Source: an uncultured Pelagibacteraceae bacterium (GTDB lineage: Bacteria > Pseudomonadota > Alphaproteobacteria > Pelagibacterales > Pelagibacteraceae). Taken from it: a stretch of DNA of 64,000 nucleotides. The DNA is taken from NCBI GenBank assembly GCA_902529715.1, contig CABZXL010000003.1:26623-90622 (forward strand), written 5' to 3'. Positions 17,248-58,108 of this stretch are shown here, piece after piece (the first letter of the stretch is position 1; every line of letters begins with the position of its first letter). The notes under the pieces were generated by a model. It was not told where the DNA came from and made no database searches. It saw only the letters and a program-made list of their open reading frames with translations. Made by a program: the position numbers and the translations under genes.

Positions 17248-18024
17248 GTCTAAAAAAAATAATTGATAAGGAACTTTTTTTTATTATTTTAATAATTTTT
17301 ATTATTCTTATATTTATTAAAAATATAAACTTTTTTCAAAAACTTATATTTTCTTCCAAATTTAGATTTTGAAGAAAGAATAACTACCAAAGTTTATAAT
17401 TATTGTAACAATGAATCTGTTGGATATGTTCACGATATAAAAAAAAAATTTAATATAACAAATAATCCAAAGGTTATAAATTTTGATATACACCCTGATC
17501 CAAGCTGGGTATTTCTTAATACTTCAAAACCAAAGAGTGATAAGTATTTAATAGTTCTAAATTATATAGAAAATCCCAATATTTTTTTTCATAAGACAAA
17601 TAAAATTTTTAGAGGTGAAAAAATATTAAATGCAGCTGGGATAAAAGAAATCCAATTTTTATCCAAATATAAAAAACCAATTAAAATTAATGGTAATTTA
17701 CACTTATACCAAGTTAAAGTTGGAACCTTTAATTTTAAAAATTTCGATGAATTAGAAAAAAATAATTTTAAATTAAAAGAAATTTTTAAATTAAAATTAA
17801 ATAAAGATAACTATGTTAATTCAAAATATTTAGTTAATAAAGAAATATCAGATTTTGGTGGAAGGGAAGTTTTAAACCTAATAAAAATTTTAGACAATCA
17901 AAATAACGAAATTGAAGAAATAGACAAAATTCAAGTAAGTTTAATAAATCAAATTTCACTTAATAACTATCAAATATTAGATAATTTTAAAAATAAATGT
18001 TTATATTTAAAAAAAAATGGATGA
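17244..18024 (+). pseudogene. frameshifted membrane-anchored protein of unknown function in saccharide island
   Basis: ATG at 17244 (overlapping the upstream TGA) gives MSLKKIIDKELFFIILIIFIILIFIKNINFF... and stops at 17370-17372; the +1 frame is open from 17329 to TGA 18022-18024 (LPNLDFEERITTKVYNYCNNESVGYVHD...) with no in-frame ATG. Confidence 0.75.
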
Positions 18025-19331
18025 AATAATTAAAATTTTGTTTCAAATTGGATTGATATTATTTATTTTTTTAATTCCAATTTTTAAACTTAACTCAAAT
18101 AATACTTTGAGTTTAAAAAATGCAACAACACTAGATCAAACTTTTTTTAATTTTATTATTTTAATAAATTTAATACTATTTTTATCTTTTTTTTTAGTTT
18201 TAAAATATCTTCAATAATTTTTTATAATTTCCTTTTTTATATTGGCATCATTAATTTATAATTTAGTTTTAAAGTATAATTTTTTAGGAAGCTTAGAATA
18301 TAAGTTAAAGCTATTTTTTTTTACAATATTTTTTATTTTAATTTCTTTTGACTTATTATTTAATCTTGAGCTTGGCTGGGATGCACAAAAATTATGGTTT
18401 CCAAAAGTTTTAAATTTTTATCAAGGAAATACTATTGCCAATCTTGAAACACTTCTTTGGCCAGAATATCCATTTTTAGGTTCACTACTATGGGCTTTTT
18501 TTTGGAAAATTAGTTTTTTCTGAATATGAATATCTTGGAAGATTAATCTATGTATTTATTTTTTGTTTATCTATTTTTTCTATTAGTGAAATTTTGAAAT
18601 TATCTTTTATAAAACAAATGTTATTTGCTTCTTTAAGCATTTTGCTTATTTACAATTACAATTTGTTTAATGGATATCAAGAAATAATAATTTTTTCTTT
18701 GGTAATTTTGGCTGCAAAATATTCTTATTTAATTATTTTAGAAAAAAAGCTAGATATTTTTTATTTAATATTTCTTTTATTAATATTTAATTCTATTATT
18801 TGGATAAAAAATGAAGGTATATTTATTTCATTATTTTTATTTTTTAATATTTTTTTATTCTCAAAATATAAATTAAAACATAAATTAATTTCTTTATTTA
18901 TTTTAATTTTATTAATTGCTTTAAGATTGTTGATTTTTAAATTTTATAATTTTGAAATAAGTTTACAACCAGGCTCATATAATAATTTTTCTCTAAGTGA
19001 AATATTTAATAAAATTAGTATTGATAGGTTAAGTATAATTTATAAATATTTGATACAAAGTATTTTTAAAAATTATTTAGTATTGTTAAGTCTACTATTT
19101 ATTTTATTTTATTTTATTAAAAAGAAAAATTTTAAAAATATCAATTTCGTATTATTTTACTTCTTTCTAAATATTGTATTTATTAATTTTGCATATTTAT
19201 TAACTGATTTACCAATAGAGTTTGCGGCTAAAAGCGGCACACATAGATTAATGTTTGAGTTTTCTGGATATTATTTGCTGTTCATAATAATTTTTCTAAA
19301 TGAATTTTGTAAACAAAGTAAAAAAAATTAG
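18017..19331 (+). pseudogene. disrupted polytopic membrane protein, probably a glycosyltransferase (GT39/ArnT-like)
   Basis: Three ORF fragments form one hydrophobic protein: in-frame TAA at 18215-18217 and a +1 shift at the T8 run 18496-18503. Middle part ELGWDAQKLWFPKVLNFYQ resembles membrane GT loops. Confidence 0.7.
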
Positions 19332-45384: not shown

Positions 45385-45965
45385 TTTAAATTTTTTATAT
45401 ATTCTTTTATTTTTTTAACTGGAAGGCCCATAATAGTATTTTCATCCCCTTCAATTTTTGAGAATAAAGACCTTCCCTCACCTTCAATTTGATAAACATT
45501 ATAGGCGTACAACGCTTCATCGGTTATTTTAGATAAATATTCTTCAAGCTGTTTTTCATTTAAGTTTTTCATAGTTAAAGCAGCCTTGTCTGTATAATTC
45601 CAAATCATAGAGCCATTTTTTGAAATACAAACAGAACTAATTAAATAATGTGTCTTGCCATTAAGTTTTTTTAATATTTTAAAAGCTTCTTTCCTATCCT
45701 TTGGTTTCGAAACTAATTCTTTATTTATATCAATTACACTGTCAGCACCAAGTACAATTTCTTTATTAAACTTTAAACTTATTTTATTGGCCTTTAACTC
45801 CGCTAAATTTTTAGAAATTATTTCCGGGCTAGCATTTTCTTTTAATAAACTTTTTTTTACCGATTCTTCATCCACATTAGATGGAAAAACTTTACATTCA
45901 ATTTCATTTTCATCCAAAATTTTTTTTCTTACTTTGCTATTAGATGCAAGAATTAATTTATGCAT
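45378..45965 (-). CDS. maf: Maf family nucleotide pyrophosphatase
   Basis: ORF; LILASNSKVRKKIL, VLGADSVI, NVYQIEGEG. Confidence 0.95.
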   Translation of the reverse strand: MHKLILASNSKVRKKILDENEIECKVFPSNVDEESVKKSLLKENASPEIISKNLAELKANKISLKFNKEIVLGADSVIDINKELVSKPKDRKEAFKILKKLNGKTHYLISSVCISKNGSMIWNYTDKAALTMKNLNEKQLEEYLSKITDEALYAYNVYQIEGEGRSLFSKIEGDENTIMGLPVKKIKEYIKNLKC

Positions 45966-46779
45966 TTTGATTTTTTATCTCATAAATTTTTATAATTGAT
46001 GCTGCGGTTTCCTCAATTGATTTCCTAGTAACATCAATTACTGGCCATTGATATTTTTTAAAAGATTCCTTTGCTTTTTTTGTTTCTAACTCTATTTTTT
46101 CAATATTTGTATAGTCGGTACCATGTTCTTCCTTTATTGCCATCATTCTATTTTTTCTAACATCAATTAATCTTTTAGGTTCAACTGTTAATCCTACCAC
46201 GCATTTAAGTTTTGGATTTTCTCTTAGTAGCTTAGGTATTGAATTTTCATTTATTAAAGGAATATTGGAGGTCTTATATCCTCTATTAGCAAGATATATT
46301 GATGTTGGTGTTTTTCCAGTTCTACTAACACCAAGTAAAATAATATCTGATTTTTCTAAGTCTTCGATCATGCTTCCATCGTCATGATTCATTGTAAATT
46401 GAATGGCTTCGATTCTTTTAGAGTTCTCTTCATAAGTATGTTGTCCACTAGGTATGTGGGAAGCTCTTTGTTTTAATAATTTAGAAAAATTTAAAATTAA
46501 ATCTCCTAGAACACTAAAACAAGGAATATTAAATTTATTTGCTTCCTTTTCTAAATATTTTGCAAGGTTATCATCAACTATAGTGTAAAGAATTATTGGT
46601 TCTTTTTGTTCTCTGGCTAATTCAATAATTTTTAAAATTTGATTTTGTGTTCTTGTAAATGAAAACTGGTGATTATTATGTTCAAAATTTGAAAACTGTG
46701 CCTTTAAAGCTAGAAATATTCTGTCTATTGTTTCTCCTGTTGAGTCTGAAATTAGATAAATATCGTGTTTAGATGTCAT
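45958..46779 (-). CDS. ppsR: pyruvate, phosphate dikinase regulatory protein (DUF299)
   Basis: ORF; YLISDSTGETIDRI, ILLGVSRTGKTPTSIYLANRGYKTSNIPL. Confidence 0.93.
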   Translation of the reverse strand: MTSKHDIYLISDSTGETIDRIFLALKAQFSNFEHNNHQFSFTRTQNQILKIIELAREQKEPIILYTIVDDNLAKYLEKEANKFNIPCFSVLGDLILNFSKLLKQRASHIPSGQHTYEENSKRIEAIQFTMNHDDGSMIEDLEKSDIILLGVSRTGKTPTSIYLANRGYKTSNIPLINENSIPKLLRENPKLKCVVGLTVEPKRLIDVRKNRMMAIKEEHGTDYTNIEKIELETKKAKESFKKYQWPVIDVTRKSIEETAASIIKIYEIKNQNA

Positions 46780-47064
46780 GTATAAAGTGTTTATAATAAT
46801 TTAATAAATTAGTTAAAAATTAATAACTTTTTTCATTTTTTTTTTATTTGAATAACTTGTAGATTATTAACATAAATAAACATCTTAATAATCAATATAC
46901 ACAATAATTTATTTAACTTAAAATTTTCAAAAAAGAGGCTATTTGTCTTAACTTTTTATTATTTTTATCTGTTAGTATTTAGTGAGTAAAATGTTAAAAA
47001 TTAATAATTCCTTATATTAACAGGATATAAAACAAATATTAAAGATTATATATATACATATTAT
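46780..47064. other. candidate chromosomal replication origin (oriC)
   Basis: 285-bp AT-rich gap between divergent ppsR and hemE with an inverted repeat and 15-bp direct repeats; neighbourhood matches origin-proximal alphaproteobacterial synteny. Confidence 0.6.
46862..46893. repeat. 9-bp perfect inverted repeat GATTATTAA/TTAATAATC
   Basis: Arms 46862-46870 and 46885-46893, 14-nt spacer. Confidence 0.8.
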
Positions 47065-48066
47065 ATGACCCCAATCCAAGAATGTATTCAAAATAAAAAT
47101 AGTAAATTAAACCCTATATGGATAATGAGACAAGCCGGTAGGTATCTCCCTGAATTTAGGGAAATTAGAGCAAAAAATCCTGACTTTATTAAATTATGTT
47201 TAAATGAAAGTTTATCTTCCGAAATAACTTTACAACCAATTAAAAGATTTGATTTTGATGCAGCAATAATCTTCTCTGATATTTTAATGTTACCATATGG
47301 TTTAGATCAAGAGGTTAAATTTGAAAAAGGATTAGGACCAAAACTAGGTGAATTAGATTTAAATAGATTAGAAAGTATCAATGGAAATGAATTTAGCAAA
47401 AAATTAAACTCTGTTTATAAATCTATATCCAAAACGTCTGTTAATCCTATTTTAAATAATAAAGATTTGATTGGTTTTGTAGGGGCTCCGTGGACAATTC
47501 TTGTTTATATGATTAATAAAATGTCGCCAAAAAATAATCTTTCAAAAAAGATTTTTAAAGACAAGCTGTTTGTAAAAAAATTGTTAGTTATTATTGAAAA
47601 ATTTCTTAAAATTCATATTGAAAACCAAATAAAAGCAGGTGTAAGTATAATACAAATATTTGATAGTTGGGCTGGATTATTAGAAGAAAATATTTCTGAA
47701 TATATTTATGAACCAACTCTAAATCTTGTTAACTATACTAAAAAATTAGGTGTTCCAGTTATTTGTTTTCCAAGAGGTATAGATAATTATAAAAATTTTT
47801 GTGATGTAATTAAACCCGATATGGTAAATATTGATTACAATGTTGATCCCAAAAAGGCAGTGAAAGAAATAAAAATACCTATTCAAGGTGGATTGGATCC
47901 AAAAGTATTATTAAGTGATAAAGAAAACTTACATAAAGAAGTAATAAAATACCTTCAAATTTTTAAAGATCACCCTTACGTATTTAATCTTGGACATGGT
48001 ATTTTGCCAGAAACAAAAATTGAAATGGTTGAAGAACTAGTAAAAATAGTTAGAGAATTTAAATAA
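47065..48066 (+). CDS. hemE: uroporphyrinogen decarboxylase
   Basis: ORF; PIWIMRQAGRYLPEFREIRA, IIFSDILMLPYGL. Confidence 0.97.
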   Translation: MTPIQECIQNKNSKLNPIWIMRQAGRYLPEFREIRAKNPDFIKLCLNESLSSEITLQPIKRFDFDAAIIFSDILMLPYGLDQEVKFEKGLGPKLGELDLNRLESINGNEFSKKLNSVYKSISKTSVNPILNNKDLIGFVGAPWTILVYMINKMSPKNNLSKKIFKDKLFVKKLLVIIEKFLKIHIENQIKAGVSIIQIFDSWAGLLEENISEYIYEPTLNLVNYTKKLGVPVICFPRGIDNYKNFCDVIKPDMVNIDYNVDPKKAVKEIKIPIQGGLDPKVLLSDKENLHKEVIKYLQIFKDHPYVFNLGHGILPETKIEMVEELVKIVREFK

Positions 48067-53954: not shown

Positions 53955-55826
53955 ATGAAAAATGATTTAACATTTGATGTTGTTGTTATAGGAGGAGGGC
54001 ATGCAGGCTGTGAAGCAGCTGCAGCATCAGCGAGGTTAGGAGTTAACACCGCACTGTTTACCCACAAAATTGAAACCATTGGAGAAATGTCATGCAACCC
54101 AGCTATTGGAGGATTGGGAAAAGGACATCTTGTCAGAGAAATAGATGCATTAGATGGACTTATGGGTGAAGTAGCAGATAAATCAGGTATTCAATTTAGG
54201 TTGTTAAATAGAAGCAGAGGTCCAGCTGTAAGAGGACCTAGAACTCAAAGTGATAGATCTTTATATAAAAAATATATGCAACAAAAACTTATAAACTACT
54301 GTAATTTAAGTGTTTTTTCTGATCCAGTAATTAAGTTTATATTTGATAAAAATAGTATAAAAGGATTTGAAACTCAATCAGGTAAGAAAATTAAAACATC
54401 TAAACTAATACTAACAACTGGCACTTTTTTAAATGGTTTGATACATGTAGGAGAAAAACAAACTCCAGCAGGTAGGTATAATGAAAAACCTTCAACAGGT
54501 TTAAGTGAACAATTAAAAAAACTTAACTTTAAAATTGGAAGACTTAAGACAGGAACGCCGCCTAGACTTGACTCCAGAACAATTAATTTTAATAATTTGG
54601 AGGAACAGTTTGCAGATGACGATCCATATTTTTTTTCTTTCCTTACAAAAAAAAATTTAAACAAACAAATTTCTTGCCGGATGACTTATACGAATGAGTT
54701 TGTACATAAAATTATTTCAAAGAACATAAAACGAAGTGCTATGTATTCAGGAACTATCCAGGGAGTTGGTCCAAGATACTGTCCATCTATAGAGGATAAA
54801 ATTATCAAGTTTGCAGAAAAGCAAAGGCATCAAATTTTTCTAGAGCCTGAAGGGTTAAATGATCATACAGTTTATCCAAATGGTATATCTACGTCACTAC
54901 CAGCCGAAATACAGCAAGAAATATGTAGTAAAATCAATGGTTTAGAGAATGTTAAAATATTAAGACCTGGATATGCTATAGAGTACGATTTTGTTGATCC
55001 AAGAGAGCTATTTCTTACTCTAGAAACTAAAAAAATCAAAAATTTATACCTAGCAGGTCAAATCAATGGAACTACCGGATATGAAGAAGCAGCCGCGCAA
55101 GGACTTATGGCTGGAATTAATTCAGCCCTCTCATTAAAAGGGAGTGAGCCATTTATTCTTGACAGATCCGAGGCATATATTGGGGTAATGATAGATGATC
55201 TTGTTACAAAAGGAGTTGCCGAACCATATAGAATGTTCACTTCTAGGGCAGAATATCGACTATCTCTAAGATCTGACAATGCTGACATTAGGCTTACTCA
55301 AAAAGGAATAGACATAGGTTTAGTTCTTGATGAAAGGAAAGAAGTATTCTTAGAGAAGCATTTTCATCTTAAACAAATTCAAGATAAAATGGATAAATTG
55401 ATTATTTCACCATCAAAAGTTTCTAAATACGGTGTAAATATTGCAAAAGATGGTGTTAGCCGAAATGCTAACCAGATATTAAGCCAAAAAACAGTAGATA
55501 TGTCTAAAATAAGGGAAATTTGGCCTGAAATTACTTATGTTTCACGTGAAATAGATGATCAATTAGAGATAAATTCACACTATAGAGGATATTTAAAGAA
55601 GCAAAATGCAGATATTTTAGCTTTTAAAAGAGATGAAAATCTTATTATTCCAAAAAATATGGATTATGACATATTTCCAGGTCTGTCTAATGAAGTTAAA
55701 TCAAAATTTAAGAAAATAAGGCCAAAAACTATGGGACAAGCGCTAAGAATTGATGGAATTACGCCAGCCGCCGTATATATTTTGTTGTCTCATCTAAAAA
55801 GAAAGTCTATTAAGCATATAGCTTGA
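53955..55826 (+). CDS. mnmG: tRNA uridine-5-carboxymethylaminomethyl synthesis enzyme MnmG
   Basis: [49 protein letters not shown]. Confidence 0.98.
55538..55553. promoter_or_regulatory. parS: parS-like site (one mismatch)
   Basis: TGTTTCACGTGAAATA within mnmG 3' region; differs from TGTTTCACGTGAAACA at one position. Confidence 0.75.
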
Positions 55827-56467
55827 TTGATTCGAATTTTATAAAAAACTCAAAACTTAATATTCAAAATGTTTCACGTGAAACATTGAATGAGCTTAAC
55901 AAATACAGTTTATCAATTATTAGAAAGAATAGAGAGATAAATTTAATAAGCTCAAGTACAGAAAAGTCAATAAATACAAGGCATATTGCTGATAGCGCGC
56001 AAATCATTGATTTTATTAATAAAAATGATATTAAAACATGTACTGATTTAGGATCAGGTGCAGGCTTACCAGGCATAGTTATGGCAATTTTGATGAAACC
56101 TAAAAAACCAGAATTTAAGGTTATTTTATATGAAAAAAGCTATCATAAAAGTAATTTCCTAAAAGAGATTTCCAAAAAATTTAAATTGAATACAGAAATT
56201 AATCAGAAAAATATTTTTGAGCAAGAAGATTTAGAAACTGACATTATAATTTCTAGAGCATTTAAACCTTTACCAATTATTTTAGAAATAGCTTCGAATA
56301 ATTTTAAAAAGTTTAAATATATAATTTTATTTTTAGGTAAAAATGGAAAGGAAATTTTAAAAGATGCAACGAATAAATGGAAATTTGACTATGAAGAAAA
56401 AAAAAGTTTAACAAGTGATGAGTCATTAATAGTTAAGATTTCAAACTTACAAAAAAAAAATGGATAA
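55823..56467 (+). CDS. rsmG: 16S rRNA (guanine527-N7)-methyltransferase
   Basis: ORF (TTG start); [17 protein letters not shown], between mnmG and parA. Confidence 0.94.
55868..55887. promoter_or_regulatory. parS: parS centromere-like site (perfect palindrome)
   Basis: AATGTTTCACGTGAAACATT, perfect 20-bp palindrome containing TGTTTCACGTGAAACA, just upstream of parAB. Confidence 0.93.
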
Positions 56468-57260
56468 AAAAATAATTTCAGTAATTAATCAGAAAGGTGG
56501 AGTAGGAAAAACTACTACGGTAATTAATTTAGCTTCAGGTTTGACAATGAAAGGCAAAAAAGTATTAGTAATAGATCTTGACCCACAGGGTAATGCTACA
56601 ACGGGGCTTGGATTGTCCAATACAGAAAATTCTGAACTAACAATTTATACTGTTCTTAATGGAAATAAAAAAATTTCTGAGGTTATCCAATCGACTAAGT
56701 TCGATAATCTAAATTTGGTGTCTTCAAATGTGGATCTCTCAGGACTGGAGGTGGAGACTGCTGGAGATAGCAGAAGGGCCTTTAAATTGAAAGACGAATT
56801 AGCCGCTATTTTAAATGATTCTGGAGGATTATATGATTATATTCTCATTGACTGTCCTCCATCGCTGAGCCTATTAACAATTATGGCATTAGTTGCTTCA
56901 GACGAACTCATAGTGCCTCTCCAGACAGAATTTTTTGCTTTAGAAGGCCTTACTCAATTGATGAAGACAATTGAAAGGATCAGGTCTAATTTAAATCCAT
57001 ATCTAAACATACGAGGTATACTTCTTACCATGTATGATAAAAGAAATAAGTTATCTGGAGAGGTAGAACAGGAAGCTCGAAACTATTTTAAGGAAAAAGT
57101 TTATCAAACAGTAGTACCAAGAAATGTAAGGCTATCAGAAGCACCATCCCATGGAATTCCAGTCCTACTTTACGATAAAACTTGTCCAGGCAGTAAATCG
57201 TATTTTACTTTCACAGATGAATTTTTAAATCAAGATAAACCTGTTGAAAGTGCCGCATGA
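56460..57260 (+). CDS. parA: chromosome partitioning ATPase ParA
   Basis: ORF; ISVINQKGGVGKTTTVINLAS, DLDPQGNATTGLG. Confidence 0.97.
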   Translation: MDKKIISVINQKGGVGKTTTVINLASGLTMKGKKVLVIDLDPQGNATTGLGLSNTENSELTIYTVLNGNKKISEVIQSTKFDNLNLVSSNVDLSGLEVETAGDSRRAFKLKDELAAILNDSGGLYDYILIDCPPSLSLLTIMALVASDELIVPLQTEFFALEGLTQLMKTIERIRSNLNPYLNIRGILLTMYDKRNKLSGEVEQEARNYFKEKVYQTVVPRNVRLSEAPSHGIPVLLYDKTCPGSKSYFTFTDEFLNQDKPVESAA

Positions 57261-58108
57261 TGAATCCATTTAAAACTAAAAAAGGATTAGGCAGAGGATT
57301 GTCTTCTTTAATTGGCGACACAGATTCAAAACCAATAAAAAATAAAATATCTTTAAGTTCAATTATTAGAAATAAATTTCAACCAAGAAAAAGTTTTGAT
57401 AAAGAAAAAATGGCTGAGCTGACAAATTCAATTAGAGAAAGAGGAATTATACAACCAATAATAGTTAGAAAATCTTCTGACCAAAATAATAAATTTGAAA
57501 TAATTGCTGGTGAAAGAAGGTGGCAGGCCGCTCAAAATGCAGGACTTCATGAAGTCCCAGTTGTAGAAATTGAAGCAGATAATTTAAAATCCTTAGAATT
57601 TGCAATTGTCGAAAATGTTCAAAGAAGTGATTTAAATCCAATAGAAGAAGCCAAGGGTTATAAAAAATTAATTGATGAATTTAGTTATGACCAAGAAAAA
57701 GTATCAAAATTTATAGGAAAGAGTAGAGCACATGTAGCAAACTGTTTAAGATTATTATCGCTTCCCGATGAAGTCATTTTACATATTGAAGAAAATAAAA
57801 TTTCACAAGGTCATGCTAAAGTGCTTGTAGGTCTTGATAATGCACACTTTTTAGCAAATAAAATTATAAAAAAAAAATTATCAGTAAGACAAACAGAAAA
57901 TTTAGTTAGATCTTTAAAAAATTATAAAGTTAAAAATAAGACAACCAAAAATCCAAATCTTATAAGTCTAGAATCTAGCATAGAAGAAAAAACTGGAATT
58001 AAAGTTTTCATAAGAAATAAAAAAAACAATTCTGGGCAAGTTACTTTTGAGTATAAAGATTTAGATCAGCTAAATAGACTGATAATGACTATAAAAGAAT
58101 ATTACTAG
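57257..58108 (+). CDS. parB: chromosome partitioning protein ParB
   Basis: ORF; KKGLGRGLSSLIGD, GERRWQAAQNAGL, ENVQRSDLNPIEEA. Confidence 0.97.
   Translation: MMNPFKTKKGLGRGLSSLIGDTDSKPIKNKISLSSIIRNKFQPRKSFDKEKMAELTNSIRERGIIQPIIVRKSSDQNNKFEIIAGERRWQAAQNAGLHEVPVVEIEADNLKSLEFAIVENVQRSDLNPIEEAKGYKKLIDEFSYDQEKVSKFIGKSRAHVANCLRLLSLPDEVILHIEENKISQGHAKVLVGLDNAHFLANKIIKKKLSVRQTENLVRSLKNYKVKNKTTKNPNLISLESSIEEKTGIKVFIRNKKNNSGQVTFEYKDLDQLNRLIMTIKEYY

Follow-up and report, generated by a model that had tools for sequence, protein, structure and literature searches.

The 285-bp gap between the divergent genes ppsR and hemE is very probably the chromosomal replication origin (oriC) of this SAR11-type bacterium. 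Several lines of evidence supported this assignment, which had first been put forward by a sequence-only reading: i) the whole-chromosome skew of relatives; ii) the symmetry of inversions among them; iii) the proximity of parS; iv) the enrichment of DnaA-box-like sites in the gap; v) the poorer fit of an origin placed at dnaA.

The window (the whole 64-kb stretch of DNA that was analysed) is part of contig C3 of a Pelagibacteraceae (SAR11) genome (917 kb in 51 contigs, 72% complete), and the closest named relatives of its HemE (58-88% identity) were from Pelagibacteraceae (SAR11) single-cell and metagenome assemblies. The predicted oriC (46780..47064, no strand assigned) is a noncoding intergenic region whose limits proved exactly those first proposed, with ppsR (DUF299/COG1806; 45958..46779, minus strand; PF03618, E 1.7e-84) on its left and hemE (47065..48066, plus strand; PF01208, E 1.2e-79) on its right. 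Its GC content is 14% vs 27% for the window, which places it within the window's lowest 1% for GC. The gap had also been called unusually large, and it is indeed the longest of the window's nine divergent intergenic regions (next 135 bp; median 85 bp); two non-divergent ORF-free stretches in the window, of 994 and 510 bp, exceed it in length. The 994-bp stretch (17248-18241) is an ORF-poor segment within the AT-richest portion of the window (about 18-20% GC), and neither DnaA-box-like sites nor an Rfam match was found in it. The region has another DNA match in its own genome (C27, 77% over 55 bp), which was rejected, as it looks like AT-rich chance similarity.

Genes switch strand at the gap, as the sequence-only reading had noticed: ppsR, maf, aroE and two further ORFs occupy the minus strand at 43.2-46.8 kb, and hemE through parB the plus strand at 47.1-58.1 kb. 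This switch is real but only local, the strands being mixed further out, and taken alone a strand switch within a 64-kb window would not prove an origin. Skew within the 64-kb window was discarded as origin evidence, since gene strand dominates it and it is hence not diagnostic. The whole-chromosome skew evidence therefore comes from complete relatives, the window's own genome being fragmented.

Alignment of the gap across relatives, one of the checks suggested together with the origin proposal, revealed that both its length and its DnaA-box-like motifs were kept in 121 loci. Between divergent ppsR and hemE in these loci, which represent eight genera, the gap measured 254-289 bp (median 282). 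Since this length is fixed while SAR11 intergenic regions are short (median 34 bp for the non-zero ones in the complete relative G012), the gap length appears to be under constraint. Median nucleotide identity to the window over 12 close relatives was higher for the gap (89.5%) than for ppsR (85.9%), maf (84.2%) or hemE (83.1%), and was exceeded by that of hemH (91.5%). In a ninth genus, g7 (G067 and G075), hemE has been lost from the locus but a gap is still present, here between ppsR and rho: the noncoding region of G075 is 353 bp long (16% GC) and carries three DnaA-box-like TTATAAACA sites, and the corresponding stretch of G067 carries four.

At the level of individual sites, the gap indeed contains no consensus DnaA box, as had been reported: no site lies within one mismatch of TTATCCACA, and the strict consensus TTATNCACA is absent from the window gap, while it occurs 77 times in the 121 relatives' gaps vs 3.5 in shuffles. 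A relaxed DnaA box, TTATNNACA, was found 361 times in the 121 gaps vs about 41 in dinucleotide shuffles, with at least one copy in 118 of the 121, and enrichment of three similar or permuted control patterns was not found in the same gaps. As the 121 gaps are related to one another and the TTATNNACA pattern was suggested by their alignment, the out-of-sample test in G012, which is outside that alignment, counts most: its gap holds three TTATNNACA sites, compared with at most one in each other region (181 intergenic regions of at least 100 bp). Moreover, across the G012 genome, sites with at most one mismatch from TTATCCACA reach their highest density in the gap taken together with its hemE edge. 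In the window, the two TTATNNACA sites of the gap are the highest count among nine intergenic regions, and five sites lie within two mismatches of TTATCCACA vs 1.07 expected from shuffles (0.4% of shuffles reach five). The DnaA of G012 retains the RDHTT recognition motif, and thus its reading of TTATNNACA-like sites is plausible.

Two weak boxes had been singled out in the gap. Both exist where they had been placed, but they differ in conservation, and better-conserved sites had been missed. The weak box TAATCTACA (46858..46866, minus strand) is unconserved, with 11% of its columns invariant over 13 sequences, and, judged from this alignment, is probably a chance match; the weak box ATATACACA (46895..46903, plus strand) is partly conserved, reading ATATACACA in 7 of 13 sequences and ATATACATA or ATATACATC in the remainder. 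The DnaA-box-like sites TTATAAACA (46788..46796, minus strand) and TTATTAACA (46864..46872, plus strand) were each kept in 11 of 13 close sequences, and ATATTAACA (47014..47022, plus strand) was identical in 12 of 13 sequences of the window's clade, the remaining one having TTATTAACA. The position of TTATAAACA, about 270 bp before hemE, is the commonest minus-strand box position over the 121 loci. At the position aligned with ATATTAACA, most of the genus outside the window's clade carries TTATTCACA or TTATCCACA. In whole subclades (L017, L019, L022 and similar loci), a conserved block, TAATTTACGTTAT or TAATNACCNTTAT, continues into the box on the hemE side. The single weakest-duplex segment in the gap had no consistent position across relatives, and therefore no unwinding element was assigned.

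A noncoding stretch so strongly conserved in sequence might instead encode a conserved structured RNA. This is extremely unlikely: at the gathering threshold Rfam returned nothing in the window but a tRNA, and the conserved blocks hold boxes in both orientations, which is origin-like. A second alternative is that the gap serves only as the divergent promoter and leader region of ppsR and hemE, its length and conservation being regulatory. A gap between divergent genes must contain both promoters, and AT-rich sequence mimics promoters as well as boxes; however, the gap outlasts the loss of hemE in g7, it is the DnaA-box-like motifs that are specifically enriched and not the permuted controls, and both the switch in skew and the centre of inversions described below coincide with the gap, so that a purely regulatory role is very unlikely.

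The other sites sought in the gap, i.e., CtrA (TTAA-N7-TTAA), IHF (WATCAN5WTR) and GANTC sites, were all absent from the window gap. Across the 121 gaps, the IHF pattern occurred 28 times vs 43 in shuffles, and TTAA-N7-TTAA occurred 78 times vs 33.5 in shuffles, an excess that repeated TTAACA-type boxes may explain. The absence of a CtrA site from the window gap fits the reported absence of a ctrA ortholog in Pelagibacter (PMC2877005).

Cumulative skew over whole chromosomes, also among the proposed checks, was run in relatives and supported the gap in G012 and in three sampled genomes. G012, a complete genome of 1,343,202 bp, was analysed whole; its gap is located at 1262 kb, and the antipode of the gap falls at 590 kb. 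Its cumulative GC, purine and coding-strand curves had their minima at 1231-1291 kb and maxima at 616-621 kb, and the third-position GC curve (coding sites only) had its bottom at 1309 kb; the minima are 26-47 kb away from the gap, on one side or the other, and the maximum is about 25-30 kb off the antipode. In a two-breakpoint fit the best origin was 1232 kb for purine skew and 1288 kb for GC skew, and fixing it at the gap cost a small loss of fit (1100 and 242 units respectively). The skew minimum is broad, with bootstrap 95% intervals of roughly 1156-1450 kb (purine) and 1218-1393 kb (GC), counted past the end of the record (1343 kb). The three further complete genomes came from three genera, G098 from the same genus and G067 and G088 from others, and sampling covered about 30% of each. 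In all three, the top score for GC, purine and strand was reached with an origin no more than 10 kb from the gap. SAR11 read coverage is described as V-shaped, with a single origin, in passages of PMC9589681 that give no location for it.

As in many bacteria, the origin might instead lie at dnaA, the ppsR-hemE gap being merely origin-proximal. In 11 complete genomes dnaA is single-copy and just 61-73 kb (about 4-6% of the chromosome) from the gap; in the window's genus and in g9 it lies beyond hemE, and in g5 and g7 beyond ppsR. The accessible text of PMC2031905 gives a rule by which oriC is assigned to dnaA if dnaA is within 7% of the skew switch, and as worded there this rule would place the SAR11 oriC at dnaA because of that short distance. 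On the other hand, an origin at dnaA in G012 lost 4584 (purine) and 1590 (GC) units, i.e., about 4 times and 6.6 times more fit than one at the gap; the 297 bp upstream of dnaA contain no TTATNNACA site; and in G098 dnaA (972 kb) is outside the top-scoring origin interval (860-910 kb).

The placement of inversions bears on the same choice. Bacterial chromosomes generally show inversions that are symmetric about the origin. In this composition-free test, ortholog distances from the gap in G012 correlated with those in G067, G098 and G088 at 0.82, 0.97 and 0.88 respectively; centred on dnaA, the correlations were 0.70, 0.97 and 0.76, that is, worse in G067 and G088 and equal in G098. Moreover, for G067 and G088 a grid search found the best centres of symmetry close to the gap or to its antipode. 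With these results, an origin at dnaA is very unlikely.

The segregation genes lie nearby as well. In Caulobacter, parS is found near the origin. The window holds an exact parS palindrome, TGTTTCACGTGAAACA (55870..55885, no strand), inside rsmG and 8.8 kb off the gap, and a parS-like site with one mismatch (55538..55553, no strand) inside mnmG; both are 8.5-9 kb from the gap, beside parA (56460..57260, plus strand; AAA_31/ParA matches) and parB (57257..58108, plus strand; ParB_N and HTH_ParB). In 11 complete relatives the best parS was 7-20 kb from the gap.

With the ppsR-hemE gap as oriC, initiation would begin with DnaA binding to an array of AT-shifted, mostly weak boxes over about 235 bp. 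DnaA would then melt AT-rich DNA between or beside the boxes, a helicase would be loaded, and two forks would depart in opposite directions to meet near the antipode. ParB bound to parS, 8.5-9 kb off, may then segregate the newly copied origins.

Membership of the SAR11 gap in the known hemE/COG1806 origin type is well supported. Origins of this type have been described by seven criteria, not all present in every genome (PMC1914354). When these were applied, the gap showed: i) hemE and COG1806 as boundary genes; ii) a size (285 bp) within 200-1000 bp; iii) AT content above the genome average; iv) more binding sites than other intergenic regions; v) similarity to relatives above that of the neighbourhood, hemH excepted; vi) a GC-skew shift, via four complete relatives; and vii) weakness in consensus sites, with no IHF site in the window gap and strict-consensus DnaA sites present in relatives' gaps but not in its own. 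The TTAA-N7-TTAA motif of the Caulobacter-type, CtrA-controlled origin was likewise lacking there.

Among individual origins, the gap resembles Cori of Caulobacter crescentus in its ppsR (COG1806/DUF299) and hemE boundaries, in being intergenic and AT-rich with several DnaA-box-like sites, and in having parAB and parS close by, but it differs in its length of only 285 bp and in its lack of CtrA, IHF and GANTC sites and of a consensus DnaA box. The oriC of Rickettsia prowazekii has the same boundary genes and also belongs to a small AT-rich alphaproteobacterial genome (PMC1914354), but CtrA and IHF sites have been described for Rickettsia, and both are lacking in the window gap. With the dnaA-dnaN type the SAR11 origin would share initiation that is presumed to be DnaA-driven (in G012, dnaA is followed by an apparent dnaN); in contrast to that type, the predicted SAR11 origin is 61-73 kb from dnaA, whose upstream region is free of box-like sites. 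Literature placing the SAR11 origin at hemE was not found in a search that covered few subscription journals and no origin databases such as DoriC, and priority for this placement cannot be claimed.

More broadly, we tentatively suggest that SAR11 might combine the ancestral alphaproteobacterial origin address, free of CtrA, IHF and GANTC control, with lineage-specific AT-shifted DnaA boxes (TTATTAACA/ATATTAACA in the window's clade, TTATAAACA in g7 and TTATTCACA/TTATCCACA elsewhere), a possibility to which we give somewhat less than even weight. If true, the origin would be a minimal free-living one, of fixed overall length but with drifting boxes. Exact knowledge of the origin, at a distance of 61-73 kb from the dnaA site that the automatic rule gives, would provide the correct leading and lagging strands for work on skew and gene strand. 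Furthermore, the gap offers a defined 285-bp target for replication timing in a streamlined alphaproteobacterium reported to be without CtrA.

Outside the 121 loci the neighbourhood varied. In other alphaproteobacterial families, ppsR and hemE were divergent in five of seven ppsR-bearing genomes, with a gap of about 330-680 bp. No ppsR homolog was detected in any of the 11 genomes searched of f2 (G211-G222), a sister family in the same order, and therefore the origin neighbourhood must differ there. A non-divergent order at L239 (a contig from a single cell, on which ppsR and a partial hemE are co-oriented) was discarded as probably an assembly or amplification chimera. Finally, in g7 (G067 and G075; L133 and L202), where hemE is absent from the ppsR-rho region, a distant URO-D homolog (32% identity) was the only one found elsewhere; the heme branch may therefore differ in this genus.
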